Source of the DNA: a bacterium
GTDB taxonomy: Bacteria; Zhuqueibacterota; Zhuqueibacteria; Residuimicrobiales; Residuimicrobiaceae
Length of the DNA: 64,000 nt
Assembly (NCBI GenBank): GCA_029565685.1
Contig: JAKQNR010000024.1
Location: 186,001 to 250,000, forward strand
Reading direction: 5' to 3'
In this document: positions 38,314-57,715 of the stretch, piece by piece
Layout: the number at the start of each line of letters is the position of its first letter
Numbering within the stretch: the first letter of the stretch is position 1
The notes under the pieces: generated by a model
What the model was told of the DNA's origin: nothing
The model's input: the letters and a program-made list of their open reading frames with translations, nothing else
Databases searched by the model: none
Made by a program: the position numbers and the translations under genes

Positions 38314-40145
38314 AAAACACTCCTTTGATTCAACTGCTTATCCAACAGACGAACGCGCCGTCGCGCCTCTTCAATATAAATACTCTGAGGATATTTTTCC
38401 AATAAAGTTTCATATTTTTTCCGCGCCTCATCGGCAAGACCAAGCTCAGATTCATACAATCCGGCCAGCGTCATCAACACGTGATCCGGCGTTCGACAGA
38501 GGTCGTCCTGCAACAGCGCCTCACACACCGGAACCGCAGCCTTGGCGCGGCCGGAAAGACGATAGGCTTCAATCAGAGTAATCCGTGCCTCCGTCGCCGT
38601 GCTGCCCGCAACCGACAGCAGACGTTCCACCGCGCGATCGTATTGCCGTTGCAGCAGGTCCAGACGGCTGGCGCCCAACTTTTGCAGGCCGACAGAGTCT
38701 GCACGATTCTCTGTCAACAGCCAGTACAATTCAAGCGCATCGTTTTCCACTCGGCTGGGCGCAGAGCCGGCTTTTAGCGCCAGAAGCTCCTTCAGCCGCT
38801 GCTCGGCAGAGCCCAGCTTGCCGGTATAAAAATCAAGCGCGGCCAGGGCCAGCCGCGCCTGACGGTGTAGTTCCGCTGCGGCCGGAATTTCGCTGACGAT
38901 TCTGGAGAAATGGGCTTCGGCAGCTGTCAAGCTGTCCGCTGCCATGGCGACTTCGCCCAATCGGTAATAGCAAAGCGCCTGCTGTGCGCCGGCCTGCATC
39001 AAAGCCCGCTCATAACCGGCCCGCGCAGCCGGTAGGTCGTGCAGCTGACGAAACTGAATGTCTGCGATGCGCAGCAACGCGGTGGTCATGTGACTGGATT
39101 TCTCATGCCGGCTGGTGAACTTTTCATAGGCGGCGATGGCAGCGGCATACTCCTTTTGTCGTTCATAAATCTCACCAAGCGCCAGTTCCGCATCCCGACT
39201 GAAGGGGCTGTCGTTATAGTGCTGCAGCAACAGGTTGAAGGCCTGCTTGGCCGGCACAAAAGCGCTGTCTTGCATCGCCGTCGTGCCCAAAAGATGCAGA
39301 TAATAACCAGGGGGATGGGTGCGGGCCGAGTCCTGATTGCTGGTCTCCAACGCCAGATACTGTCTCAGCGCTTCGTCATACTTGCCGGACTGAATGTGCA
39401 GCGCGCCGAGGATTTGCCGGGCAATGACCGCTCTTTGCGGAACGCGCTTGATCAGGTCAGTCAGCGCATGCACCATAGACGGCAGCGCAGCCGGTTCCTC
39501 TGCCGCCTGATTTAAAAATTGACTCTGAATGCGGGCCGCCTGCTCTGGAAACGCAGCCAGATATGCCTCAAGCTCGCGGGCGCTCAGACCATAATCTCCC
39601 TGCCGGTGAGCAATACGGCTGATCTCCTGGGCATAACGGACCGGCGATTTGAATCTGCGGCGCGCCAGCTCGTACACCTGCCTCGCTTCATCTAACAGGC
39701 TGTAACGTTCCAGCGTCGCACCGATCAGAAGATAAACCTGCTCGCTCTGGGGATTGCTTTCCACCAGATTCATCCAGCGCTGAACCGCCTCCTTGCGTTG
39801 GCCCTGCAAAAATGCGATCTCTGCCAAGTCCGCTTCCAATTCCAATCTGCGAAAGCGGGTTTGCAGCTGCAAAACAAGCTGTTCCAGCCGAGCGTATTGC
39901 TGCAGCTGCAGCAGACACCGCTTGGCGCCGCCATAAGCGACCTGATCCGTTGGCGCCGCTTCGGTCAGACGGACATAGATCTCGGCCGCCAAGTCATAGC
40001 GGCGCAAAGACTCGTACTCCGCCGCCCGTGCCAGCATCTGCCTCGCCTGCTGAGGGCTGGGCGCCTGCGCTTGCAGACCCACTGCCAATGCCAACCACAG
40101 CAGCCCGTTAACGACTCGGTTGCTCTTTTTCAAACAAGGCCTCAT
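38310..40145 (-). CDS. exported TPR protein
   Basis: A 611-residue protein with a signal peptide (about 8-27, AVGLQAQA). Almost the whole chain is TPR or TPR-like helix pairs, for example AAEYESLRRYDLAAEIYVRL near the N-terminus, FSRDAELALGEIYERQKEYAAAIAAYEKF in the middle and KKYETLLEKYPQSIYIEEARRRV at the end. The last part resembles YbgF-type outer-membrane assembly TPRs. The ATG at 40145 gives a proper signal peptide; upstream codons in the same frame fall inside the DUF4175 gene. It overlaps that gene by 38 bases and the next gene by four. Confidence 0.82.
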   Translation of the reverse strand: MRPCLKKSNRVVNGLLWLALAVGLQAQAPSPQQARQMLARAAEYESLRRYDLAAEIYVRLTEAAPTDQVAYGGAKRCLLQLQQYARLEQLVLQLQTRFRRLELEADLAEIAFLQGQRKEAVQRWMNLVESNPQSEQVYLLIGATLERYSLLDEARQVYELARRRFKSPVRYAQEISRIAHRQGDYGLSARELEAYLAAFPEQAARIQSQFLNQAAEEPAALPSMVHALTDLIKRVPQRAVIARQILGALHIQSGKYDEALRQYLALETSNQDSARTHPPGYYLHLLGTTAMQDSAFVPAKQAFNLLLQHYNDSPFSRDAELALGEIYERQKEYAAAIAAYEKFTSRHEKSSHMTTALLRIADIQFRQLHDLPAARAGYERALMQAGAQQALCYYRLGEVAMAADSLTAAEAHFSRIVSEIPAAAELHRQARLALAALDFYTGKLGSAEQRLKELLALKAGSAPSRVENDALELYWLLTENRADSVGLQKLGASRLDLLQRQYDRAVERLLSVAGSTATEARITLIEAYRLSGRAKAAVPVCEALLQDDLCRTPDHVLMTLAGLYESELGLADEARKKYETLLEKYPQSIYIEEARRRVRLLDKQLNQRSVF

Positions 40146-43100
40146 AATACTGCTTGATGAGCTCCAGATAATCGCGGCTGTATCCCTCCTTTTTCGCGCG
40201 GAGAAAATCCTGCTGCCACTTTTGCTTGCGGTCGCCCAGATCCGCCGGCAACTCACCGGGGCTGACCGTCGAATAGGATCGCCCGGTCTCCGCGCGTCGG
40301 TCTTTGCTGTATTCCCGTTCGCGCAGGGATTTTTGCGAGTCCAGCATACGCGATAGAATCTGCTCCTGCCGTTGAATGGTGTTGCGTGTGACCTGACGGC
40401 CGAGGTCCTGCTCCACCTGTTTCATATCTTCGATCATTTTATCCAGCCTGGCGCCGGATCCAGCAAGATTTCCGGACTCTTGAGCCAATTGTTCCAACGA
40501 CTTGCGCAGCTGCGCTTGCTCGGCGGCCAACCTGGCCATCGCCTCCTGCTGCCCGCTGCCCATGGCGCCATCCATGCCCAAAGCCAACGTTCGCTGATTG
40601 ACGCCCTGCTGCCCTTTGGATAAAGATTGCATCTGCTGAATGAACTGTTCCATGCTCATGCCGCCGCTGCCGCCCTGCATCATGGCTTGCATGGCGGAGT
40701 GCATCTGCTTGGCCGCGCGATTGAGCAGGGCCATGGCTTGGCCCTGCCGTCCGGCAGCAGCGGCGTGATTGCGCGATTCCAACGCCTCCAGGGACTGGGC
40801 CATGCTCTGCGCCGCCTGCCCCAACGCCCCGCCGATCTGCGGATCGATCTGCAGGCTTTCTTTGGACGCGTTAAAAATCTGATCCATCACCCGGCTCAAG
40901 GCTGAAAAAACATTCTGCTGCTCCTCAGCGATATCGCGGATATCCTGGGTCGAAGATTGTGTGGATTCGCTGCGGTTGAGCAGATTCTCCTGCTTTTGCG
41001 ACAGCGACAACAGATCCTTCATGCCTCGCTGCAAGGCCTGCATGGCGCGCTGCTGCTGAGCGCCCGATACTTTGTCCTTCGCCTGTTGCAGCTCTTGGGC
41101 TGCCGCGTTCAATTCGTTTCGAATGGGTTCGGAAAGCGCAGCCAGACCTTCGGATGCGCCGCGCTGCAACCGTTCCTGCATCTCCTGCAACCGTTCCTGC
41201 ATCTCCTTGGATTCGAGACGGTCCTGCGCCCGCTGTACCTCCTGCTGCGGCATGCCCGGCTCGTTCGCCATCTCTTGCTGGACGCTATCGAGCATTTTCT
41301 GCAAATCGGCCACATGGTTGCGCAGATCCGCCTGCCGCTGCGATGCGCCGGACTGCTCCGGCTTGTCGCTGATCTGCTTTTGTTCCTCCGCCAGCTTTTG
41401 AGCTGTGCGTACCGCCTGATCCAACTGCTGCTCCATTCTGAATCGTTTGAGCAAAGAGATGGCGCGATCGAGATTTTGATTCATCTCCTCTGCAGATTGA
41501 CGGTATTGTTGCAGCGCTGTGTTGACCAGCCGCGGATCCAGCTTTTGCATGGCCTCCGCCAGCTCCTGCATCGCCTTTTGCAGTTCCGGCGTCATGATCT
41601 CACGAAACAGTTGCTGCAGCTCCTCATATTTTTTCAACGTCTGCCAAGAGGCCAGCGCATTTTTTTCCATCTTTTGGAGCATCTGATCCAAGGACTCGGT
41701 CAGATGCTGTAAATCTTGTTTGATTTGCTCCTGCTGGCTTCCGGCGTCATCCAACTGCTGCTTGCGGTGCCAATCGATCTGCGGATCGCGCTGCAGCTCC
41801 CTCTGCAGCTCCTCCACATCCCTTTTCAGATCCTGACTCTGTTCATAGATCGATTCCATTCGCGCAATCGCGTCCGTCTGACTGGACGCCAGCTCTTCAT
41901 ACATCTCGTACAACGAAGGAAACCGTGCCCGATAATACGGAGTGCTGGCGGCTTTGGGGCCGTTGACCTGATCATTGTCAAAGACCTGAACCGCGTAAAG
42001 CACGCTTTCATTGGGCAGCAACGGCGATGAAGAAAGATCCCAGGAAAAAGCCAAATAGCTGTGGTCTGAAGCGGTCAACGGCAGCCGCTCGCGGGCAAAA
42101 CGCGAGCTGTCGATCTCCACCTCTCCAGCCGCCAGTACCTGATAGAGCAGATACATGGCGGACAAACCATAGTCGTCCTGAGCTTCGATCGCCAGAGGCA
42201 GCTGCATGTCTTCTCCCAGATCCACATCGCGGCCAGGCGCCAGCAAGCGGACAAAAGGAGGTTGATCCGGCAACACGCGCAGATGATACTCGATCTGCGG
42301 CGCAGCCGGCCACCCACGATGGTCTGACAGATAAAACCGATATCGATCGTTAGTCTGCAGCACAAAAGAGGCCTGCAGATGCCGTCCGGAGACCGCCATC
42401 GGCAAGGGACGGGCAAAAGCGAACTCCACTCGAGCGGTGTCCACCCAGCCATTGGTCTCGGCCTGAATCTGCACGCATGTTCCCATCAGGGCAGACACAT
42501 CGCCGCTGTTCTCTGGCAGCACCACCGGTTCCTGTCGAGAGTAGGACGGCGGAATCAGCTTGACATGAAGGGACCGGATCATCACCCGTTCTGCCACCGA
42601 CACCCGATACCATCGGCTCCTCATTCTGCCGCTATGAATGCGGTAAAGAAAAGAATCGTGCACCGCAGTGAATCGATAATGCAGTGTGTCAAGCACACCT
42701 TTCTGCAGATCGGCGTTCTCCAGGCGGCCATCCCTGCGAACCTGCAGTTGCGGCTTGCTGAGCCAGGGCGTAGCGGTCACCACGCGCACGAGCAAATCCT
42801 GACCCTTGATCACCGTGACATCCCCAGGCAGCACGGAATAAGGCAGCGACGCGGTCTGATAAAAATCGCGCTGCGGAGAAAACAACCGGACCGCGCCGCG
42901 TGTCAGGCTCTGTCCTAGCAGAAGCGCCAGCAGCAAAGAGAAGATCAGGCTCTGCCCTAACCTCAAATAGATGCGCCGGTACTGAGGATTCGGGCCGCAG
43001 TCGGAGAAATCATACCCCTCGAGCTGCGCCGCCACCTCAGCGAACGCGGCTTGTATCAAATCCGAAGAGTAGGCTTCCTGATTGTGGTCCAGCTTGCTGA

Positions 43101-43449
43101 GCAGCTGCAGGGCATTGGCCAGACGATCATGCACCGACTCGTAGTGAGAACCCAGCTCCAGCGCCACCCGGTTGATAGACGGAGTGTTGGGCTGAAAAGC
43201 CCACTGGCAAAACGCACCGCCTGCCTTGTAGATCAGCCAGGTCGACGACCCCAGGGCTGCGGTAAGTAAAAAGGCCCAACGGAGCCAGGAGGGCAACAGC
43301 AGGGCGCCGTTGATAGCCAACACGACCAGCCAGACCGGCGCCAACGGCATCAGCCCCTGCGCCAGCGCGGCGCCCAGGCGTCGCCGCTTCTGCTGCCGTC
43401 GATAGGCCTTCAATCGAGCGATAAATATTTTTTCACTTTTTTTATTCAC
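40108..43449 (-). CDS. DUF4175 membrane protein with a very long glutamine-rich coiled coil
   Basis: A 1113-residue protein. Two transmembrane helices lie at about 32-72 and a third near 168-185. A beta-rich region (about 190-490) follows. From about 515 to 1060 runs an extended coiled coil rich in Gln, Met and Glu, with heptads such as MQERLQ. A charged tail ends the protein. It resembles the DUF4175 family. The start is GTG, one base after the DUF4159 stop, suggesting coupling. A perfect 21-base tandem duplication at 41164-41205 duplicates one heptad. Function is unknown; the neighbouring genes suggest an envelope complex. Confidence 0.75.
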   Translation of the reverse strand: MNKKSEKIFIARLKAYRRQQKRRRLGAALAQGLMPLAPVWLVVLAINGALLLPSWLRWAFLLTAALGSSTWLIYKAGGAFCQWAFQPNTPSINRVALELGSHYESVHDRLANALQLLSKLDHNQEAYSSDLIQAAFAEVAAQLEGYDFSDCGPNPQYRRIYLRLGQSLIFSLLLALLLGQSLTRGAVRLFSPQRDFYQTASLPYSVLPGDVTVIKGQDLLVRVVTATPWLSKPQLQVRRDGRLENADLQKGVLDTLHYRFTAVHDSFLYRIHSGRMRSRWYRVSVAERVMIRSLHVKLIPPSYSRQEPVVLPENSGDVSALMGTCVQIQAETNGWVDTARVEFAFARPLPMAVSGRHLQASFVLQTNDRYRFYLSDHRGWPAAPQIEYHLRVLPDQPPFVRLLAPGRDVDLGEDMQLPLAIEAQDDYGLSAMYLLYQVLAAGEVEIDSSRFARERLPLTASDHSYLAFSWDLSSSPLLPNESVLYAVQVFDNDQVNGPKAASTPYYRARFPSLYEMYEELASSQTDAIARMESIYEQSQDLKRDVEELQRELQRDPQIDWHRKQQLDDAGSQQEQIKQDLQHLTESLDQMLQKMEKNALASWQTLKKYEELQQLFREIMTPELQKAMQELAEAMQKLDPRLVNTALQQYRQSAEEMNQNLDRAISLLKRFRMEQQLDQAVRTAQKLAEEQKQISDKPEQSGASQRQADLRNHVADLQKMLDSVQQEMANEPGMPQQEVQRAQDRLESKEMQERLQEMQERLQRGASEGLAALSEPIRNELNAAAQELQQAKDKVSGAQQQRAMQALQRGMKDLLSLSQKQENLLNRSESTQSSTQDIRDIAEEQQNVFSALSRVMDQIFNASKESLQIDPQIGGALGQAAQSMAQSLEALESRNHAAAAGRQGQAMALLNRAAKQMHSAMQAMMQGGSGGMSMEQFIQQMQSLSKGQQGVNQRTLALGMDGAMGSGQQEAMARLAAEQAQLRKSLEQLAQESGNLAGSGARLDKMIEDMKQVEQDLGRQVTRNTIQRQEQILSRMLDSQKSLREREYSKDRRAETGRSYSTVSPGELPADLGDRKQKWQQDFLRAKKEGYSRDYLELIKQYYEALFEKEQPSR
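41164..41205 (-). repeat. tandem 21-base repeat inside the DUF4175 gene
   Basis: Two perfect copies of a 21-base unit (41164-41184 and 41185-41205) encode two identical heptads of the coiled coil. This keeps the frame and the heptad register. Confidence 0.9.
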
Positions 43450-43450
43450 G

Positions 43451-44125
43451 TTATCGAGTCATGGCATAGTACAATATGTTTACGCCCATTTGCAGGGCCC
43501 GCTCCCGCACCTCGGGCGGATCCTTATGCACCTCTGGGTCTGCCCATCCGTCCGATATATTGGCATTATAGGAGTAAAAAACCACCAGCCTTCCGGAATG
43601 AAAATAGCCCCAGGCCTCAGGCGGGCCGCCGTCGTGTTCGTGGGTCTTTGGCAATCCGTTTTCAAAGGAATAAAAAGTGTGAAAAACCGGATGAGAAAAC
43701 GGGATGGGCAGCAACGCCTTGTCTGGAAACACTTTTTTCATCTCACGGCGAAAGTGTTCATCCATTCCATAGTCATCGTCTGCAAGAAGAAAGCCGCCGC
43801 CCTCCAGATACTGCCGCAAGCGCGCGGCCTCCTGGTCGGTAAAATAGATGCGACCGTGGCCGGTCATGAACAGCAGAGGATAAACGAATAAATTCTCATC
43901 CAGCAGCGAAACGCGCCCCTCCTGATCCGCACAACGCAAGCCGGTCGCACGCTGGAAATAGTTCAGAAGATTGGGGATCATCGAAGCGTCGTTGTACCAG
44001 TCGCCGCCGCCACCGTACTTTAAACGAGCTACGGTAAAAGCCTCAGCAGCGGTCGAGGTCTGCGCCCACCCCACAGAAGTGCATACCCAAAGGCCGCTGA
44101 ACAGTAAAATCGCTGCGTTTTTCAT
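43451..44125 (-). CDS. DUF4159 exported protein
   Basis: A 224-residue protein with a signal peptide (residues 1-21, ending VGWA/Q). The body has FTVARLKYGGGGDWYND near its start, YPLLFMTGHGRIYFTDQEAARLRQYLEGGGFLLADD in the middle and PIPFSHPVFHTFYSF, all characteristic of DUF4159. The family is thought to have a glutamine-amidotransferase/ThuA-like fold without proven activity. The ATG at 44125 is chosen over an upstream in-frame start because it is directly followed by the signal peptide. It precedes DUF4175 by one base, the pairing often seen in this protein family. Confidence 0.85.
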   Translation of the reverse strand: MKNAAILLFSGLWVCTSVGWAQTSTAAEAFTVARLKYGGGGDWYNDASMIPNLLNYFQRATGLRCADQEGRVSLLDENLFVYPLLFMTGHGRIYFTDQEAARLRQYLEGGGFLLADDDYGMDEHFRREMKKVFPDKALLPIPFSHPVFHTFYSFENGLPKTHEHDGGPPEAWGYFHSGRLVVFYSYNANISDGWADPEVHKDPPEVRERALQMGVNILYYAMTR

Positions 44126-44129
44126 ATGT

Positions 44130-44169
44130 CCACAAAACAACAAGTCGGCCTGATGCAAAGCCGACTTGT
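44130..44169 (-). terminator. terminator-like hairpin after the SurA-type gene
   Basis: A perfect ten-pair stem (44160-44169 with 44140-44149) with a ten-base loop is followed on the minus strand by TGTTGTTTTG. The tract is only moderately T-rich. It lies about 80 bases past the chaperone stop and just before DUF4159. Confidence 0.6.
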
Positions 44170-46489: not shown

Positions 46490-49400
46490 TTAGAGTATAC
46501 TTTGCAAGAACTTTTTCGCTGTTTCAACCGGATTATGATGTTTACTGATGTTCACTACGAAATAGAGTGCGTCTTTATCCTGCCGCAAATCAAATCGGCA
46601 CGAGGCTTTGTCCAATATTTTATGCATCCAGGAGGTAAAATGTTCCTTGTCCGGCAAAGAGGGGGTGTGGAATTTTCCGATGAATTGACCGTTCTTGAAT
46701 TGCAGTTCATCGACCAGCGCCTTGCGGGCATACAGTTTTAGCAGCACGAAATCGAACAGATCCCTGGCTGAGGCCGGCATGGGGCCAAAACGGTCGATCA
46801 ACTCGGTGTGCAGCTCTTCGATTGCCCGCTCGGTTTTCGCTTCAATAAGACGTTTGTAAATGTCCACGCGGTCCGATGCCGCAGGGACAAAATCCACCGG
46901 CAGATAAACATCGGTGGGCATCTCCACCCTGCTTTCTATTGCAGGTTCCTGGTCCTGAGACTGCGCCATAGGCTCCAGATTCATCTCCTGGCGCAGTTCG
47001 CGGATCGCCTCTTCCATGATCTTGGCATAGAGTTCATACCCCAGCGCGTTAATATAACCACTTTGTTCAGAGCCAAAGATATTGCCCATACCGCGGATTT
47101 CCATGTCGCGCATGGCGATTTTATACCCAGAACCCAGATGCGTGTACTCTTGAATGGTCTGCAGCCGCTTTATAGCGTTGCGGTTCAGCTTGCGCAGCGC
47201 CGGGATCAGCAAATAGGCATATGCCTGCTGTTGCGAACGGCCCACGCGGCCGCGCAGCTGATAGAGCTGCGCCAGACCAAAGCGGTCCGCCCGGTTCACG
47301 ATCAACGTGTTGGCATTGGGCACATCGATGCCTGATTCGATGATCATGGTGCAGATCAAACACTGTATTTTCCCCTCGCTGAAATCGATCATGATCTGCT
47401 CCAGCTCATCGCCGTCCATCTGGCCGTGGGCCACGCTGAAGCGGACTTCAGGCACCAGTTCGCGCAGCAGGCTGGCTATGCCATAAATGGTCTGAACACG
47501 GTTGTGGACAAAAAAGATTTGACCGCCGCGCTCAACCTCCTTCAAGATGATCTCACGCACGAACACCTTGTCAAAGCGGCTCACTTCGGTCTTGATCGGC
47601 CGACGGTTGTATGGGGGCGTGTTGATCACCGACATGTCGCGTGCACCCATCAGAGCCATATGCATGGTCCTGGGAATCGGGGTTGCGGACAGCGTCAATG
47701 TATCCACTGAAGCTTTCAGCAGTTTCAATTTTTCCTTATGCAGCACGCCGAATTTATGCTCTTCATCCACAATCAACAGGCCCAGATCCTTGAATTCGAC
47801 ATCAGCCGAGAGCAGACGATGGGTGCCGATGATCAAGTCCACTTTGCCTGCTTTGAGCCGCTGAATAATCTCCTTTTGCGCAGCCGGCTTGCGGAATCGA
47901 TTGAGCATCTCGATGCGCACTGGGTACGGTTGCAGTCTTTCGCTGAAGGTGATAAAATGCTGCTGCGCCAAAATCGTAGTCGGCACCAATAACGCCACTT
48001 GTTTGCCGTCATTCAGCGCTTTAAAGGCTGCGCGCACCGCCACTTCGGTTTTGCCAAAGCCCACGTCGCCGCAGATCAGACGATCCATGGGAACCGGCTT
48101 TTCCATATCTTTTTTAATGTCCTGCACAGCTGCGAGCTGATCCTGAGTCTCCTCGTACAAAAACGAGGCCTCAAGCTCACTCTGCCAGGGCTGATCACTG
48201 GAAAAAGCATAACCCTCTTTTAGTTTGCGCAGCGCATACAGCTTGATCAACTGACCGGCTATCTCTTTGACCCGTTGTTTGGTTTTGGTTTTCAGCCGAT
48301 CCCAATCCTTGGCGCCCAGCTTGCTCAGTACCGGAGCGTAACCGTCTTGCGAGGAGTACTTTTGTACACGATCCATTTTTTCAAGAGGTACATACAAACT
48401 GTCGCCATCCTGATATTCAATTTTTATGCACTCCCGCTGCTTGCCGTAAGCCTTGATGTTATGGAGTCCTCGGAAGATACCCACACCATAATCCACATGA
48501 ACTACGATATCGCCTTCGTTCAGTGCGGTCAATTCATTCAGGGAAACTTGGCGTTTGCTGATACGGTCGCCGCGTCTATAGTTCGGCCGGTTAAAGATCT
48601 CTCGTGAGGAGTAGCAGGCCACATGATAATCGTTCCAAATAAAGCCGGCTGAAAGGTTCCATGTTTCTGCGCGTACAGCAGGAGAAAAGTGGTCCTGTTG
48701 CAGCAGCTGCTGCATGCGCTGGGTTTGATAGTCATCTTCACACCAAATGCGCAAAACAGGCTCCACGCCGGCTGCATGCGCATCGGCCTCCAGCCGTTGC
48801 AATTCATTTTTCAGCAGTGTTATATTGCCGGCGAACCGACCGCAGGGCTGAATGTTGAAAGAGATGGTCTCGTGGTCGGCGGTGAGCGAGGAAAAACCAA
48901 GTTGTGAATAGCTCACCAGCTGCGCCAGCACCACATCCGCGGTCTCATAAAACTGATCAAGGGTTAGTTGGCCCTGCAGTTTGTGATCTTCGATATAGGT
49001 TTGGCCCCGCACCTGCAGTCCTCGTTCCGCTTCTTCCAGAGTTATGCGCAACAGAGCGGATTCGGCTGTCATCACCAGGCTGTCGGTTTTTAGGTAAGCG
49101 GCCAAGGTGCTGTCCAATTTCATGATCTCCTGAGGGTGATCTGCTGCCGGGCCAAAGGGGCCGGCGCTTCCGGGCGGCAGCACCGTGAGTGCTTCTCGCG
49201 AAGAAAGGGAGCGTTGGTTTTCCACGTCAAAATCGCGAATGCTTTCAATGGTGTTGCCGAAAAACTCGATGCGGCATGGATGCGTTTCTTCATAACAAAA
49301 GATATCCAGCAATCCGCCGCGAACGCTGATCTCCCCCGGCCCTTCGACACGTTGTTCACGTACGTAACCCATGGACACTAGGCTTTGCACCAGATCCGAG

Positions 49401-49846
49401 AAATAGAGCTCGTCCCCCTGCTGCAAGTAGATCTGGGCCCGACGCAGAGAGGTGGGGTTGACGACTTTTTCCAAAAGCGCGGCTGCCGGCATGACGACAA
49501 CAGGCGCTGGTTCGTTAAGGAGCGCCTTCAGCGCCATAAGCTTACGACCGATCGCTTCAGCAGAGGGTCCCAATTCGCTCCACAGCTGCCGGTCATAAAA
49601 AGGGAATAAAACGGATGAAATTTGTGGAGAGATCTCCTGCAAGTCGCTATAAAACTGCTCCGCCTCCTCCTCGCCAGGAAGCACACACAGAACGGGTTTT
49701 CCTCGATCAGCCAGGGCGTTGAGGATAAAGGCCTGGGCGATATGGTTGGCGCCGCTTGCCTGGACGATTTTATTGGATTGCAGGGCCCTGCGCAGCGCCT
49801 GCAAGGGTTCGCTGTTTGAAAAAATTGTCTTGATCTCTTGCATCAT
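46490..49846 (-). CDS. mfd: transcription-repair coupling factor Mfd
   Basis: ATP-dependent DNA translocase that removes stalled RNA polymerase and recruits UvrA to lesions. The 1118-residue chain has the UvrB-like N-terminal module (with GPGEISVRGGLLDIF), the RNA-polymerase-interacting domain (GDIVVHVDYGVGIFRGL, with YVPLEKMDRVQKY) and the RecG-like helicase with Walker A GDVGFGKTEVAVRAA, box II DEEHKFGV and the RGRVGR motif. A regulatory C-terminal domain completes it. The ATG at 49846, ten bases after the murQ stop, fits the family's N-terminus; a longer frame overlaps murQ. Another ATG follows directly. Confidence 0.96.
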   Translation of the reverse strand: MMQEIKTIFSNSEPLQALRRALQSNKIVQASGANHIAQAFILNALADRGKPVLCVLPGEEEAEQFYSDLQEISPQISSVLFPFYDRQLWSELGPSAEAIGRKLMALKALLNEPAPVVVMPAAALLEKVVNPTSLRRAQIYLQQGDELYFSDLVQSLVSMGYVREQRVEGPGEISVRGGLLDIFCYEETHPCRIEFFGNTIESIRDFDVENQRSLSSREALTVLPPGSAGPFGPAADHPQEIMKLDSTLAAYLKTDSLVMTAESALLRITLEEAERGLQVRGQTYIEDHKLQGQLTLDQFYETADVVLAQLVSYSQLGFSSLTADHETISFNIQPCGRFAGNITLLKNELQRLEADAHAAGVEPVLRIWCEDDYQTQRMQQLLQQDHFSPAVRAETWNLSAGFIWNDYHVACYSSREIFNRPNYRRGDRISKRQVSLNELTALNEGDIVVHVDYGVGIFRGLHNIKAYGKQRECIKIEYQDGDSLYVPLEKMDRVQKYSSQDGYAPVLSKLGAKDWDRLKTKTKQRVKEIAGQLIKLYALRKLKEGYAFSSDQPWQSELEASFLYEETQDQLAAVQDIKKDMEKPVPMDRLICGDVGFGKTEVAVRAAFKALNDGKQVALLVPTTILAQQHFITFSERLQPYPVRIEMLNRFRKPAAQKEIIQRLKAGKVDLIIGTHRLLSADVEFKDLGLLIVDEEHKFGVLHKEKLKLLKASVDTLTLSATPIPRTMHMALMGARDMSVINTPPYNRRPIKTEVSRFDKVFVREIILKEVERGGQIFFVHNRVQTIYGIASLLRELVPEVRFSVAHGQMDGDELEQIMIDFSEGKIQCLICTMIIESGIDVPNANTLIVNRADRFGLAQLYQLRGRVGRSQQQAYAYLLIPALRKLNRNAIKRLQTIQEYTHLGSGYKIAMRDMEIRGMGNIFGSEQSGYINALGYELYAKIMEEAIRELRQEMNLEPMAQSQDQEPAIESRVEMPTDVYLPVDFVPAASDRVDIYKRLIEAKTERAIEELHTELIDRFGPMPASARDLFDFVLLKLYARKALVDELQFKNGQFIGKFHTPSLPDKEHFTSWMHKILDKASCRFDLRQDKDALYFVVNISKHHNPVETAKKFLQSIL

Positions 49847-49856
49847 AGTCGAAGCG

Positions 49857-50771
49857 TCACTCCATGGTGATGGCTTTACGGACAAAGCCATCTGCCTGTT
49901 GCAGGCGTTTTTGCGCTGTGCGGCTATCCACTCCGGCCAGGATCATCACCAGCGCTGTTTTAACGTGGCCGCCAGCTGATTTCAGCGCTGATCCGGCTTC
50001 CTCATAGTCAACACCCGTGGCCAACATGAGAATTCGCTTGGACCGTTCCTCCAGCTTTTTGCTGGTCATCTGCAGATCCACCATCAAATTGCCGTAGACT
50101 TTGCCGAGGCGAATCATGGCGGTGGTGGTGAGCATATTCAGAACCAATTTCGTCGCTGTGCCGGCTTTCATGCGCGTGGATCCCATGATCACCTCCGGTC
50201 CCACTACCGGGCAAATAGCCACATCCACCGGAATGTTCATCTCCTCGCGCGGATTGCAGGTGATATAGATAGTTTTGGCCCCGGCTTTGCGCGCCTGTTC
50301 GATAGCGCCGATCACGTAGGGAGTGCGTCGGCTGGCAGCGATGCCGCAGACCACATCCTCGCGCCCCACCTCCCTGGCCCGGAGGTCATTGGCGCCCTGC
50401 TCGAATTTGTCCTCCGCCCCCTCCTGCGCCTGCACCAGCGCTTTGTTGCCTCCGGCGATCACGCCCTGAATCATCTCTACTCTGACGCCAAACGTAGGCG
50501 GGCATTCGGCTGCATCCAACACACCCAGCCGACCGCTGGTGCCGGCGCCCACATAAAACAACCGGCCTCCGCGTTTAAAGGCGTCGACGATCAGATCCAC
50601 CGCCTGAGCGATATAAGGGATCTCTGCGCCGACGATCTCGGCGACTCGGCGGTCCTCTTCATTGATCATTTGCAAAATCCTCTCCACCGGCATGCTGTCG
50701 ATATCCTTGGTGAGCGGATTAATTTGCTCCGTAGTCAGATCCTTGATCTCTTCAAACACTCTGTCTTTCAC
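49857..50771 (-). CDS. murQ: N-acetylmuramic acid 6-phosphate etherase
   Basis: Cleaves the lactyl ether of MurNAc-6-phosphate, giving GlcNAc-6-phosphate and lactate in cell-wall recycling. The 304-residue SIS-fold protein has FYVGAGTSGRLGVLDAAECPPTF (73-95) and the PEVIMGSTRMKAGTATKLVLN segment, both family signatures, plus a C-terminal helical HTH-like part. Its first 20 bases overlap the end of rsmG. It sits in the origin-proximal operon where parA/parB are often found in other bacteria. Confidence 0.95.
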   Translation of the reverse strand: MKDRVFEEIKDLTTEQINPLTKDIDSMPVERILQMINEEDRRVAEIVGAEIPYIAQAVDLIVDAFKRGGRLFYVGAGTSGRLGVLDAAECPPTFGVRVEMIQGVIAGGNKALVQAQEGAEDKFEQGANDLRAREVGREDVVCGIAASRRTPYVIGAIEQARKAGAKTIYITCNPREEMNIPVDVAICPVVGPEVIMGSTRMKAGTATKLVLNMLTTTAMIRLGKVYGNLMVDLQMTSKKLEERSKRILMLATGVDYEEAGSALKSAGGHVKTALVMILAGVDSRTAQKRLQQADGFVRKAITME

Positions 50772-51396
50772 TTGACCTTTCCTTTCTCAGGAGCAACAAA
50801 CGGCTTTCTGAGATTGTATGCAGCATCGGGATCGATTCAACCGTCGCGCCTGCGAGAGGCTCGACCTCCTCCTGCAAGCCCTTTTGCGTAACCAGAAATC
50901 CCTCAGGCCGCAACAACGGCTGTGCCCATACCCACAACTCTTCCAGCCCGGCCACGGCCCTTGCGGTTACCAGATCGAAAGAGTTTGACCTGCTCTGTTG
51001 CAGCTCCTCCGCCCGCTGGCGCAGCACCTGAGCGTTCGCCAGACCAAGCTGCTCCACCGCTTCGCGCAAAAACAACGTGCGCTGCCGCCGCGAATCCAGC
51101 AGCGTCACCCTTACATCTGGACGTAAAAGCGCCAGGACCACGCCGGGAAAACCTGCGCCGCTGCCCATATCGAGAACCTGGACGCCAGCCAGCAATCCAG
51201 CGACACGGGTGAAATTCCAAGAATCAGCCACATGTTTACTGGCGATCCTGTTGAGATCGTTTTTCGACACCAGATTGCAGCGGCCAGTCCACCGCTCGAC
51301 CAATTCAACATAGCGGTACAGTCCGGCTGCCTGCTCTTCGGACAGAGCGGCTCTGGCGCAAAGTTGGAGCAGCCCGGTTTTGTTTTCGACCCGCAT
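50752..51396 (-). CDS. rsmG: 16S rRNA (guanine527-N7)-methyltransferase
   Basis: Methylates G527 of 16S rRNA. The 214 residues include LVSKNDLNRIASKHVADS near 42-59, the SAM-binding LDMGSGAGFPGVVLAL (74-89) and the VTARAVAGLEELW segment. The gene is next to mnmG and mnmE, the usual order near the origin. It lies 36 bases downstream of the first parS-type palindrome. Confidence 0.95.
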   Translation of the reverse strand: MRVENKTGLLQLCARAALSEEQAAGLYRYVELVERWTGRCNLVSKNDLNRIASKHVADSWNFTRVAGLLAGVQVLDMGSGAGFPGVVLALLRPDVRVTLLDSRRQRTLFLREAVEQLGLANAQVLRQRAEELQQSRSNSFDLVTARAVAGLEELWVWAQPLLRPEGFLVTQKGLQEEVEPLAGATVESIPMLHTISESRLLLLRKERSSERQSV

Positions 51397-51430: not shown

Positions 51431-51446
51431 CGTTCCACGTGGAACG
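51431..51446. promoter_or_regulatory. parS-type palindrome 1
   Basis: The 16-base site CGTTCCACGTGGAACG is a perfect palindrome with the core GTTCCACGTGGAAC found in bacterial parS sites, bound by ParB to organise origin segregation. It lies between rsmG and mnmG, about 6 kb from oriC. The outer bases differ from the second copy. Confidence 0.88.
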
Positions 51447-51486
51447 CTTTCATCTGCGCGGTTGCGGCCGCAGGTTCTCCCCGGAA

Positions 51487-51502
51487 TGTTCCACGTGGAA
51501 CA
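51487..51502. promoter_or_regulatory. parS-type palindrome 2
   Basis: TGTTCCACGTGGAACA matches the consensus parS form perfectly on both arms. It ends exactly one base before the stop codon of mnmG and is 56 bases from the first site. The pairing of two sites this close strongly supports function. Confidence 0.92.
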
Positions 51503-53389
51503 TCAGCGGCGACGGCCGGTTTTTGTCAAAAACACCAGCAAAACGGCAATGTCAGAAGGTGCGACGCCGAGAATGCGTGATGCCTGGCCCAGCGTTCGCG
51601 GCCTTATCCGTTTGAACTTGTCGCGGCTCTCTTTTGACAACGCCTGGAGCGAATCGTAGTGGAAATCTTCCGGTATGGTGATCTCCTCCCATTGTTTCAT
51701 ACGCTGCACCTGCTGCTGCTGGCGATCGAGAAAACCTTGATATTTGATGGAGATTTCAACCTGCTCGCGGACCTGACGCCAGAAGGGATCAGCGTTGGCG
51801 GAAAAAAGTTCTTCCTGGTACAACTCGAAAAAATCGACAAGTCTCACCTCCGGCCTTTTGAGCAATCGCGCCAGGCTTTCAGTCTCGTTGAGTTCAGCAG
51901 AGCCCTCGGCAGCCAGGATTTTGTTTACCGCGACCAAGGCCGGCTTGTCGTGTTGCAGTCGCACCAGCGCCTGCTCGATGGCTGCTTGTTTGCGCTCGAC
52001 CAGAGCGTAGGCTTGTTCGTCGATAAGGCCGAATTGACGGCCATACTTCATCAGCCGCAAATCCGCGTTGTCCTGACGCAAAAACAACCGGTGTTCGGCC
52101 AAAGAGGTGAACATTCGGTACGGCTCTTCTAGTTCCTTGGTGACCAGATCGTCTATCAGTACGCCGATATATGCCTCATCTCTGCGGAGAATAAACGGCG
52201 GTTGTTGGCGGATTTTAAGTACAGCGTTGATGCCCGCCATCAAGCCCTGAGCCGCCGCCTCCTCATAGCCTGAAGTGCCATTTATCTGTCCGGCAAAATA
52301 TAATCCGGGAATAAACTTGCTTTCCAAAGTGGCCTGCAGTTGGATCGGAGGGAAATAATCATATTCGATGGCATATGCCAGCCGAGTGACCTGGCAGTTC
52401 TGCAATCCAGGAATGGTTCGAATGGCCGCCTGCTGTATTTCTTCCGGCAGGCTGGAAGAAAAACCATTGACATAGTATTCGTAGGTGTCTCTGCCCTCTG
52501 GCTCAAGAAAGATCTGATGCCCCTCGCGGTCGCCGAAGCGATAAATCTTGTCTTCAATAGAGGGACAGTAACGCGGCCCCACCCCTTTGATGATACCGGC
52601 ATAGAGAGGGGACTGAGAAAACCCGTTGCGCAATATTTCATGGGTCTTTGGCGTGGTTCTGGTAAGATAGCAGGGCAGTTGGTCACAAACAACCTGCGCA
52701 TGCCTATGGGAAAAAGAAATAGGTTCATCGTCGCCGCGTTGCACCGTCATCGCAGTAAAATCCACTGTGCGGCCATCGATGCGCGGCGGCGTGCCGGTCT
52801 TCAACCGCTTGACAGCGATACCCTGCTCTGCCAGCCATTCAGACAGGCCATGCGAGGAAAGCTCCCCTGCCCTACCGCCGGGAAAATGGACCATTCCGAT
52901 GTGGATCAACCCATTGAGAAATGTGCCGGAACAAAGGATCACTGCCTGGCTGTGCAAATGAGTTCCTATCTCGGTCACCACTCCTGCTGCACGGCCTTGG
53001 TCGATCAAAAGGGCAGTGATGTTCATCTGCCGAAGGTACAGGTTCGGCTGATTTTCGATGCTTAAACGCATCCGCTGGCTGTAGGCGAGACGATCGTTTT
53101 GCGTGCGCAACGACCACACCGCCGGACCCTTGGAGCGGTTCAACATTCGGAATTGCACTGCGGTTTCATCCGCCACCACCCCCATCTCGCCGCCAAGACT
53201 ATCGATCTCTTTCACCAGGTGCCCCTTGGCCAATCCACCGATGGCTGGGTTGCAGGACATCTGGCCGATGGTGAAAAGGTTGAGCGTGGTCAACAAGGTG
53301 CGGGCGCCCATGCGGGCGCAGGCCAGCGCAGCCTCACAACCGGCGTGACCCGCGCCGACAACGATGACATCGAAATATTCTTCATTCAT
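51503..53389 (-). CDS. mnmG: tRNA uridine-5-carboxymethylaminomethyl modification enzyme MnmG
   Basis: FAD enzyme that, with MnmE, installs cmnm5 on U34 of several tRNAs. The 628 residues start with the dinucleotide-binding VIVVGAGHAGCEAAL (about 8-22) and carry GLAKGHLVKEIDSLGG, GRYCPSIEDKI-like GPRYCPSIEDKIYRF and the C-terminal PSDIAVLLVFL segment. The ATG at 53389 is two bases after the mnmE stop, showing coupling with its partner. The frame runs a few codons further upstream, inside mnmE. Confidence 0.97.
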   Translation of the reverse strand: MNEEYFDVIVVGAGHAGCEAALACARMGARTLLTTLNLFTIGQMSCNPAIGGLAKGHLVKEIDSLGGEMGVVADETAVQFRMLNRSKGPAVWSLRTQNDRLAYSQRMRLSIENQPNLYLRQMNITALLIDQGRAAGVVTEIGTHLHSQAVILCSGTFLNGLIHIGMVHFPGGRAGELSSHGLSEWLAEQGIAVKRLKTGTPPRIDGRTVDFTAMTVQRGDDEPISFSHRHAQVVCDQLPCYLTRTTPKTHEILRNGFSQSPLYAGIIKGVGPRYCPSIEDKIYRFGDREGHQIFLEPEGRDTYEYYVNGFSSSLPEEIQQAAIRTIPGLQNCQVTRLAYAIEYDYFPPIQLQATLESKFIPGLYFAGQINGTSGYEEAAAQGLMAGINAVLKIRQQPPFILRRDEAYIGVLIDDLVTKELEEPYRMFTSLAEHRLFLRQDNADLRLMKYGRQFGLIDEQAYALVERKQAAIEQALVRLQHDKPALVAVNKILAAEGSAELNETESLARLLKRPEVRLVDFFELYQEELFSANADPFWRQVREQVEISIKYQGFLDRQQQQVQRMKQWEEITIPEDFHYDSLQALSKESRDKFKRIRPRTLGQASRILGVAPSDIAVLLVFLTKTGRRR

Positions 53390-53391
53390 AA

Positions 53392-54768
53392 TTATTTGCC
53401 GATGCAAAAACGCGAAAAGATATCATGCAGCACATCTTGAGTCGTCACCTGCCCGGTGATCTCCCCCAGCGCATCCTGGGCTGCAGTCAAATCAGGCAGA
53501 AGAAATTCAGCGCTATAATTTTGCTGCAGCGCGTGCAACGCTTGTCGTATGGCGCTGCGTCCGGCGAGCAGGCTTTGTTGATGACGGATTTTGTCGATAA
53601 ACACGCCCTGCTGCGGAGCTCTGTGACTGAGTGCCTGGTTAATGAGCGCCTGCTCAAATTGCTCAAATCCCTCGCCGGTCTTGCAGGAAAGGGAAATTGT
53701 CGTACTCGGCAACAACGAAAATGCGCTGGGAGAAAAAGAGGGCTTGTCTTTTTTATTGATAATCCGCAACAATGGTTTGTCAAGGGCCTGACAATCCCGC
53801 AGCAATTGTCGGTCTTCCTCCTCTTCAGGCTGACTCCCATCCACCATGCAGACGAGCAGATCCGCATCAGCCATGGAGTTTCGCGTTCGCTGCATCCCCA
53901 TCTGCTCCACAGGATCTGTGCTGGAGCGCAGCCCGGCGGTGTCGACGAGTCTAAACAGATAGCCGTTGATGGAGATCGTCTCTTCCAGAGTGTCTCGCGT
54001 GGTTCCTGGAAAGTCGGAAACCAGAGCGCGATCCTTTTTCAACAAACGATTCAGCAAGCTGGATTTGCCCACATTGGTTTTACCAACGATAGCCACCAGC
54101 ATCCCCTCACGCACCAAACGGCCGTATTCAAAGGAAGAGATCAGCGCACTGAGCTGCGAATCGAGTTTTTGCAGCAGTTGCGCCAGTTCGGAACGGTGAA
54201 GGAAAACCTCCTCCTCGTTGAAATCCAGTTCAAGCATTAACAGCGCCTGGGCATCGATAAGCTGTTGTCGAAGCCTCTGCACATACTCGGAGAGCTCTCC
54301 TCCCAATTGGGCCAGAGCTTGGCCGAGATTTTTCGGCGTGTTGGATTGAATCATATCCGCCACAGCCTCGGCTTGAATCAAATCCATTTTTCCATTCAGA
54401 AAGGCACGCAAAGTAAACTCCCCCGGCTCTGCCATACGACCTCCTGCTAGCAACAGTGATTGCAGAATTCGATCGATGATAAACAGGCTGCCGTGACAGG
54501 AGAGTTCAACCACATCTTCTCCGGTGTATGATGCCGGCGCCGAATATTTGGTAAGAACTACCTGATCCAACCAGAGACCTGATGGTGTGTAAAATTTGGC
54601 CACAGTGGCCTTCCGGGCAGGAGCAGAGGAAAGAATAGGCTTTTCGCCAAGGTGTTGTTCGACTAGATCCACCGCCTGCTTGCCGCTGATTCGAATCAGC
54701 GCTAGAGCGGAAGGCGCTTTACCGCTGGCCAAAGCTACGATGGTGTCTGCTAATGAATAATTGTTCAT
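53392..54768 (-). CDS. mnmE: tRNA modification GTPase MnmE
   Basis: Partner of MnmG. The 458 residues contain an N-terminal formyl-THF-like domain (about 1-120), a helical domain and an inserted G domain with G1 GKTNVGKSS, G2 GTTRDT, G3 DTAG and G4 NKKD. The C-terminal CIGK supplies the conserved cysteine. It lies just after the yidC terminator and two bases before mnmG. Confidence 0.97.
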   Translation of the reverse strand: MNNYSLADTIVALASGKAPSALALIRISGKQAVDLVEQHLGEKPILSSAPARKATVAKFYTPSGLWLDQVVLTKYSAPASYTGEDVVELSCHGSLFIIDRILQSLLLAGGRMAEPGEFTLRAFLNGKMDLIQAEAVADMIQSNTPKNLGQALAQLGGELSEYVQRLRQQLIDAQALLMLELDFNEEEVFLHRSELAQLLQKLDSQLSALISSFEYGRLVREGMLVAIVGKTNVGKSSLLNRLLKKDRALVSDFPGTTRDTLEETISINGYLFRLVDTAGLRSSTDPVEQMGMQRTRNSMADADLLVCMVDGSQPEEEEDRQLLRDCQALDKPLLRIINKKDKPSFSPSAFSLLPSTTISLSCKTGEGFEQFEQALINQALSHRAPQQGVFIDKIRHQQSLLAGRSAIRQALHALQQNYSAEFLLPDLTAAQDALGEITGQVTTQDVLHDIFSRFCIGK

Positions 54769-57131: not shown

Positions 57132-57275
57132 TTATTTATCACTGACGGTCAGTCGTTTGCGTCCTTTGGCTCTTCTGCTCTGCAGCACCGCTCTTCCCGA
57201 TTTGCTTGCCATGCGGGCGCGAAAGCCGTGTTTGTTCACTCGCTTCCGTTTACTGGGTTGAAATGTTCTCTTCAT
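57132..57275 (-). CDS. rpmH: 50S ribosomal protein L34
   Basis: A 47-residue, very basic protein starting [20 protein letters not shown] and containing [20 protein letters not shown], both standard for L34. The C-terminal LTVSDK is also typical. It is the first gene left of oriC, preceded by a well-spaced promoter at 57310-57338. Confidence 0.96.
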
Positions 57276-57309
57276 GAATTAGCCCTTTCACAATTTGACG
57301 TAGAACATA

Positions 57310-57338
57310 AATTTAATTATTTTTTACTTAAAAATCAA
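57310..57338 (-). promoter_or_regulatory. promoter of rpmH-rnpA-yidD-yidC
   Basis: TTGATT (57333-57338) and TAAATT (57310-57315) on the minus strand with exactly 17 bases between them. The start is expected near 57303, about 28 bases before rpmH. It is in the origin region and points away from it. Confidence 0.7.
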
Positions 57339-57419
57339 GAGCTTTCTTTAGTGGAAAAGCGCTGCTGAACCTGACTGGGAATGAAAAAATAACGCATGGA
57401 ACATTTTCATCATTGACTT

Positions 57420-57700
57420 TGCCTGAACATTTAGTAAATTAAAGTATAATAAACTGACAAAGAGCAACATGTGGATAAGTATCAGAGTCTGTAATTTCGC
57501 TTTTTCCTGTATAAAAATCTGAAAAATTAACATTGTGGATAACCGATCTATTAAAAAATATTATATTATTATTTTTCAATATTTTAATTAATTTATGCTG
57601 TTTTAATCTGATGTTGATAAGTGATAAAAAATGTTGAAAAGTCAAAAAGTGTCCCTTTTTATGCTCAAAAAGGACTTCTGAAACAATATGTTGATAAATA
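57420..57700. other. oriC: chromosomal replication origin (oriC), dnaA-proximal part
   Basis: Two perfect DnaA boxes read TTATCCACA on the minus strand at 57470-57478 and 57534-57542. Two variants reading TTATCAACA lie at 57612-57620 and 57689-57697. All four point the same way. An A/T-rich block at about 57541-57610 (almost only A and T for 60 bases) could be the unwinding element. The block sits between rpmH and dnaA where strand bias of all genes switches. Short open frames over this region are not supported. Confidence 0.88.
57634..57662 (+). promoter_or_regulatory. possible dnaA promoter
   Basis: TTGAAA (57634-57639) and TTTTAT (57657-57662) are 17 bases apart, with a start about 45 bases before the ATG. 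The last DnaA-box variant (57689-57697) would fall within the transcript leader, as expected for autoregulation. The -10 match is weak. Confidence 0.35.
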
Positions 57701-57715
57701 GAATAGGAAAAATCA

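Follow-up and report, generated by a model that had tools for sequence, protein, structure and literature searches.

In this study, we believe that two palindromes beside mnmG are very probably parS sites that form the centromere of a chromosomal ParABS system, on which ParB from a parAB operon elsewhere in the genome would act in trans, loading beside oriC. They were found in the window (the whole stretch of DNA analysed, 64,000 nucleotides long). Most likely, this is a chromosomal ParABS centromere of the ordinary kind, located about 6 kb from the putative oriC, because the draft genome holds only two cores of the motif, an adjacent parA-parB pair lies elsewhere, and its ParB carries the residues that specify parS. 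The components of this system are known and the centromere itself is ordinary; the placement of the sites at mnmG throughout the phylum (candidate division KSB1), with a detached parAB, was not expected. What was observed directly comprises the sites with their numbers and positions, and the genes for ParB and ParA with their motifs; binding by ParB and the function of the sites are inferred from known ParABS biology.

The parS pair and the genes around it

The two sites were found where the earlier note had placed them, as consensus 16-base palindromes 56 bases apart with perfect cores (Table 1). Site 1 is the exact 16-bp parS consensus, and site 2 has the same 14-bp core and deviates at the two outermost bases only. 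The spacing of 56 bp is counted from start to start, with 40 bp in between. One site had been described as exactly adjacent to the mnmG stop codon, and site 1 indeed touches this codon (51503-51505, minus strand). The same note held that the pair brackets the 3' end of mnmG, which was not the case, because both sites are downstream of the stop codon, inside the mnmG-rsmG gap. Compared with the same-genus genome G049, the parS cores are kept at 14/14 bases, and the 42-column spacer is identical at 20/42.

At up to 3 mismatches, the window held 2 parS matches against a shuffle mean of 0.21, and 5 of 100 shuffles gave at least two such loose matches. In the whole draft genome (5,276,209 bases, 52 contigs, 91.8% complete), the 12-mer parS core was present at 2 places, both of them the window pair, and the reversed control gave 0. 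The 14-mer GTTYCACGTGRAAC likewise had 2 copies. At the size and base composition of the draft genome, 0.022 copies of the 14-mer GTTCCACGTGGAAC were expected, and a chance origin of the pair was rejected on this ground. When up to 3 mismatches were allowed genome-wide, there were 24 parS-like places versus 10 for the reversed control. Two weaker matches (2 mismatches) were considered as further parS sites and set aside as background, since their palindromes are broken and they lie on other contigs. The motif is not randomly distributed in this count: the sole two perfect cores stand 56 bp apart near oriC. Because the genome is 91.8% complete and in 52 contigs, additional sites could be missed.

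Table 1. Features of the window around the parS pair.
Feature	Position	Strand	Profile match or remark
mfd	46490..49891	-	TIGR00580, 1006 bits, cut-off 800
murQ	49857..50771	-	TIGR00274, 388 bits, cut-off 302; occupies the usual place of parA
rsmG (gidB)	50752..51396	-	TIGR00138, 136 bits, cut-off 99.5
parS site 2, CGTTCCACGTGGAACG	51431..51446	.	56 bp deeper in the mnmG-rsmG gap; 56-bp spacing also in same-genus G049
parS site 1, TGTTCCACGTGGAACA	51487..51502	.	abuts the mnmG stop codon; 14-bp core identical in same-genus G049
mnmG (gidA)	51503..53407	-	TIGR00136, 839.5 bits, cut-off 524.85; frame called from the first TTG
mnmE	53392..54768	-	NF003661, 401 bits
probable oriC	57270..57715	.	AT-rich, ahead of dnaA; TTATCCACA at 57470-57478 and 57534-57542; consensus matches only
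dnaA	57716..59059	+	TIGR00362, 543 bits, cut-off 343.9

The minus strand carries, in this order, yidC, mnmE, mnmG, the parS pair, rsmG, murQ and mfd, and dnaA, dnaN and gyrB run in the opposite direction. The likelier start of mnmG is an ATG (MNEEY) 18 nt inside the called frame. The mnmE frame reaches 16 nt into mnmG as called; counted from the likelier ATG of mnmG, it stops 2 nt short. The end of mnmE and the start of mnmG are so close that the usual upstream parS has no space in the genus of the window. The nearer DnaA box and the nearer parS site are 5,968 bp apart, which agrees with the distance of about 6 kb from oriC given in the earlier note, with two perfect DnaA boxes marking the putative oriC. 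The profile matches also confirm its statement that murQ and mfd follow rsmG instead of parA-parB, and no parA or parB was found in the 15-kb stretch around the pair. A murQ gene between rsmG and mfd was seen in many KSB1 families; it was not found there in f3, f5, f7, f18 and f20-f23.

Some other frames of the window, all on the minus strand, were recorded. A 3581-aa open frame (12782-23527) has nearly no Pfam match, apart from a weak NPCBM_assoc stretch below the cut-off. A 1288-aa frame (6888-10754) has HATPase_c_2, SpoIIE phosphatase and TPR domains, and adjoining DUF4175 and DUF4159 genes occupy 40108-43449 and 43451-44158, respectively.

A parAB operon elsewhere in the genome

ParB had been said to be necessarily encoded elsewhere, and a parAB pair was found on another contig (C14). 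Neither of the two outcomes that the earlier note had named as refuting, a genome lacking any ParB homologue or a motif scattered at random, was observed. The search of the genome with HTH_ParB gave one protein, 285 aa long, at 286 kb of this contig, with scores of 127 bits for HTH_ParB and 177 bits for parB_part. Its ParB_N, HTH_ParB and ParB_C domains all matched Pfam above the cut-off. It carries GERRLRA and ENIHRENLNP, which we take to be the CTP-binding motifs. The parA gene is immediately upstream of parB on the same strand, with an 11-nt overlap as called, and encodes a 254-aa protein with a Walker ATPase domain and the motif KGGVGKTT. Even at the closest possible joining of the separate contigs, parS and parB would be separated by at least 164 kb. 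A second protein (332 aa, C4:311825-312109, loci L005 and L008) has a weak ParB_N domain and no HTH_ParB match; it is encoded about 74 kb from the parS pair.

Jalal et al. (2020, PMC7383237) gave R173 and G201 as the residues that make ParB choose parS over the Noc site, and described G170-K171-S172 as conserved in both protein groups. Mapped by spacing to C. crescentus positions 162, 173, 178, 201 and 204, the ParB of the window genome has Q, R, N, G and R, respectively, which is the parS-type set of that paper. At positions 170-172, also mapped by spacing, it has S-R-D instead of G-K-S, with R173 and G201 retained. This substitution and the incomplete 52-contig genome count against the centromere reading. 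For the phylum, 55 of the 61 ParB proteins could be parsed (the other 6 did not fit the residue pattern); R173, N178 and G201 were present in 55/55, and 2 have K at 204.

ParB was detected at E <=1e-20 in 75/82 KSB1 genomes, and in 48/49 of the genomes with a completeness of 90% or more and a contamination of 5% or less. The parA gene adjoins parB on the same strand in all 61 parB loci retrieved (the window genome and 60 others), and the 14-mer is absent from all 61. Conversely, neither parA nor parB was matched in any of the 75 parS loci retrieved, which are 3.6 to 18 kb long. Among 20 genomes compared, parAB and parS were on one contig in 5, at distances of 1.11 Mb in G042 (genome of 5.3 Mb), 570 kb in G077, 96 kb in G038, 75 kb in G068 and 72 kb in G069. 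In the other 15, with the window genome among them, the two are on separate contigs, and their minimum distances are 34 to 236 kb. A place of parAB inside the origin domain is usual for chromosomal ParABS but does not define it.

In established ParABS biology, ParB is loaded at parS as a CTP-dependent clamp and covers several kb; ParA moves it, and it recruits SMC (in part from PMC7333895, PMC5815017 and PMC7022226). By analogy, we propose that ParB from the distant parA-parB operon would bind each parS in trans, take up CTP and become a sliding clamp, and then spread across the mnmG-rsmG region beside oriC. The spread ParB would be the cargo of ParA and probably also the platform on which SMC is loaded, and the newly replicated origin would in this way be moved first. 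Two parS sites would mean two loading points for ParB, and these would remain in the short mnmG junctions phylum-wide, with both in the mnmG-rsmG gap in the genus of the window. As ParB is diffusible, the distance between parAB and parS need not matter. In Caulobacter, an additional parS cluster is reported to be tolerated only in a zone of about 500 kb around the native one, plus a limited zone near ter (PMC5815017), and this fits the tight clustering of parS. Our literature search gave no paper pairing KSB1 with ParB, and no binding or segregation data for the phylum.

Position of the sites around mnmG in KSB1 and other phyla

Among the best 80 of 592 matches to the mnmG of the window, the two top ones were MAGs of candidate division KSB1, with 58% and 56% identity, and the third was labelled Raineya, with 56% identity. 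The two MAGs correspond to G062 and G066, genomes of the same class as the window, with 23 of 23 probes of 60 bases in common in each case, which places the genome of the window in KSB1. In a set of 82 KSB1 genomes, every listed place of the 14-mer was retrieved and the genes were mapped by tblastn. The 14-mer was present in 71/82 genomes, and in 49/49 of the genomes that passed the same limits of completeness (90%) and contamination (5%). Without exception, the 142 copies are located in the interval from mnmE to rsmG: before mnmG, after it or in its last codons; 5 of them, on contigs without mnmG, were placed by mnmE or rsmG alone. Position at mnmG is common to the whole phylum as far as it is assembled, usually with two sites, a pattern that could not be seen from the window on which the earlier note was based. 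The 11 genomes without the 14-mer are all without mnmG in the assembly as well (mnmG was found in 70/82).

Of the 71 genomes with the 14-mer, 57 have two sites, 8 have one, 4 have three and 2 have four. Six of the eight one-site genomes (G018, G023, G031, G039, G070 and G078) have a contig edge in or near mnmG; in G070 the site itself is at the edge and its contig holds no mnmG. G081 appears to have a single site only. In G019, which also has one site, a partner with one mismatch, GTTCCATGTGGAAC, was observed in the mnmE-mnmG gap (L132, 10379-10392).

When mnmE, mnmG and rsmG are on one contig (58 genomes), one site upstream and one downstream of mnmG is the arrangement in 42, with two upstream in 6, two downstream in 5, one downstream in 2, and three or four sites in 3; exactly two sites are present in 53/58. 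The two-site genomes overall include 46 with one site on each side and 6 with both upstream. G003 was counted among the 46 because one of its sites, on a contig with no more than the 3' part of mnmG, lies between mnmG and rsmG. In the genomes with one site on each side, the gaps have medians of 27 and 48 nt between alignment ends. The mnmE stop is known for 66 upstream sites, and 43 of these follow it at a distance of 0-8 nt; the mnmG stop is known for 70 downstream sites, of which 20 follow it at 0-8 nt and 34 start ahead of it. In the genus of the window (its genome and G049), both sites are downstream of mnmG and 56 bp apart. We observed that 29 of these 70 downstream sites are entirely within the mnmG reading frame and code for part of the MnmG tail (loci L119-L192), as V-S-R-E-T in L140, L179 and L184 and as V-P-R-G-T in L164. 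Asymmetric sites, with one GTTTCAC and one GTTCCAC half, make up 41/142 of the KSB1 sites. Their GTTTCAC half points away from mnmG in 29/41, although the genomes are related and these counts are not independent; the orientation of asymmetric sites in Bacteroidota looked mixed.

A quick tree was built from the mnmG of 57 genomes, and on it parsimony requires 9 changes for the arrangement, 5 for the number of sites and 4 for the side in two-site genomes. Of its 54 inner branches, 13 are open; when the well supported ones alone are considered, the state with both sites downstream needs a minimum of 2 changes. The sites have thus switched sides more than once, with two of them retained.

The link with mnmG extends to other phyla. 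A parS is held within the retrieved stretch in 58 of 80 named mnmG loci. A genome-wide count in 42 of the 80 genomes, the majority of them Bacteroidota, gave 90 sites, with none in 4 genomes; 71 of the 90 are inside mnmG or within 250 bp of it, and 84 are within 2.1 kb. For Bacteroidota (the phylum of Chryseobacterium) and Pseudomonadota (the phylum of Methylopumilus), the first 20 listed genomes of an even draw were used, which do not make up a random sample, with one cluster per genome retrieved. A site inside mnmG or within 250 bp of it was present in 18/20 Bacteroidota, and a site at mnmG in 17/20 Pseudomonadota. No match to mnmE, rsmG, parA, parB or dnaA was found in 20/20 Bacteroidota mnmG-parS regions (7-13 kb), and rsmG, which is poorly conserved, could be missed there; parAB follows rsmG in 19/20 Pseudomonadota regions. 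There is no mnmG in 2/20 Bacteroidota regions and 1/20 Pseudomonadota regions, and the sites in the genomes of L054 and L073 all lie outside the mnmG locus. Exactly two sites is also the commonest number in Bacteroidota (102/148 genomes) and Pseudomonadota (79/150), and the idea that two sites are special to KSB1 was dropped. The odd features of KSB1 are the position at mnmG and the distance of parAB, not the number of sites. The plain reading of these sequences is that the sites around mnmG would be old, dating from when parAB stood beside them, and that KSB1 would have lost parAB from the cluster, with the sites staying with mnmG in KSB1 and Bacteroidota.

Rival readings and known systems

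The palindromes might be RNA hairpins, acting as terminator or attenuator of the mnmE-mnmG-rsmG operon, rather than protein sites. A scan flags 51431-51446 as terminator-like, but on the plus strand, opposite mnmG, and 4 such places in the stretch compare with 3.3 expected. Moreover, rsmG, murQ and mfd continue on the same strand, sites stand on both sides of mnmG or wholly inside its frame (the 29 downstream sites above), and the 41 asymmetric sites would put a mismatch or wobble in the hairpin, while remaining compatible with ParB half-sites. We consider this reading extremely improbable. We regard it as equally improbable that a Noc-like or other ParB paralogue binds the sites for nucleoid occlusion. 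The ParB on C14 does score 235.3 bits with nucleoid_noc (NCBIfam) and a second ParB_N protein exists; however, the score is below the cut-off of 315 bits, the protein has R at position 173 and G at 201 where Noc has Q and R, the second protein is without an HTH_ParB match, and the site is parS, not NBS. Both readings were rejected, the former on strand context and asymmetric sites and the latter on the sub-cut-off score and R173/G201, and the parS centromere is retained.

Why mnmG is the fixed neighbour of this centromere is a separate matter, and our leading answer, which we hold to be somewhat probable, is inertia. It is compatible with the centromere reading and assumes an ancestral mnmE-mnmG-rsmG-parA-parB cluster with parS around mnmG, from which parAB left and the sites did not move; the gaps are short, breaks would be rare, and there would be no selection on the link with mnmG as such. 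Pseudomonadota retain such a cluster, with parS near mnmG and parAB after rsmG in nearly all regions, and the regions without mnmG in both phyla, like the genomes of L054 and L073, indicate that the link is breakable. Against inertia, the site is still at mnmG in 18/20 Bacteroidota, where no mnmE, rsmG or parAB was found around mnmG, and this includes genomes with all sites on a single side; in KSB1 the side changed 4 times (parsimony, two-site genomes, quick tree) and the number is still two. A functional link is possible but very unlikely in our judgement: ParB loading around mnmG would control the expression of mnmG (and of mnmE or rsmG), and this coupling would hold the sites there. The upstream sites just past the mnmE stop (43/66) and the presence of the link in three phyla would suit it. 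In M. bovis BCG, ParB at a parS overlapping the gidB promoter may repress gidB, a suggestion only (PMC2346475), and a parS of S. pneumoniae affects comCDE 5 kb off (PMC7022226). On the other hand, the cloned gidA promoter region from P. aeruginosa work was not regulated by ParA/ParB in E. coli (PMC3909081), loss of Spo0J in B. subtilis left parS-adjacent genes unchanged (PMC7022226), and in the genus of the window both sites are downstream of mnmG. A broader proposal seems doubtful to us, namely that mnmG with its adjacent parS is an ancestral Gram-negative centromere cassette actively held by selection, which would keep the ParB loading sites at mnmG and, through them, mnmG at the origin, even though parAB has left the neighbourhood, as have mnmE, rsmG and dnaA in Bacteroidota, possibly through a coupling between ParB loading and mnmG expression. 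That selection keeps the parS sites themselves is suggested by their conservation.

Compared with the chromosomal ParABS of C. crescentus, P. aeruginosa and B. subtilis, the system of KSB1 has in common the parS core, the ParB domains and specificity residues, the adjacent parA and the position of the sites a few kb from oriC. It differs in that parAB is outside the rsmG-parA-parB cluster, at least 164 kb off in the window genome and 1.11 Mb in G042, and in that there are usually just two sites, at the mnmG junctions. In Thermus thermophilus parABc, parS likewise belongs to the gid region close to the origin; in contrast, there is a single site inside gidB, directly upstream of the linked parA (PMC4409726). 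The mycobacterial gidB-parA-parB region near oriC shares the number of just two parS, whereas its sites are upstream of gidB and inside parA, with parAB linked (PMC2346475). The Noc-NBS system shares the ParB fold and a 16-bp palindromic site, and differs from the present one, which has a Noc score below the cut-off and parS-type residues.

Studies have shown that gidA and gidB are among the origin genes of variable place (PMC2099444), and that in gut bacteria the origin, as placed by the parS cluster and GC skew, is not always at dnaA (PMC10197239). The parS cluster that marks ori in Bacteroidota in the latter work is comparable to the parS beside mnmG in the Bacteroidota analysed here. KSB1 differs in that dnaA, mnmE and rsmG are still beside mnmG, and mnmG is not mentioned in the available text of that paper. 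In a literature search mostly at title and abstract level, with subscription papers largely outside it, no published description of parS held to mnmG in these phyla was found. With 142/142 sites around one gene, usually two of them, and with parAB apart, KSB1 is a clean natural case in which the position and number of the sites are separable from the parAB operon. In addition, mnmG with parS may serve as an origin marker in KSB1 and many Bacteroidota, which would be useful where dnaA is off the origin (PMC10197239). In a Rhodothermus locus (L028), two parS triplets (11890-12049 and 17049-17145), about 5 kb apart, were observed to flank mfd.
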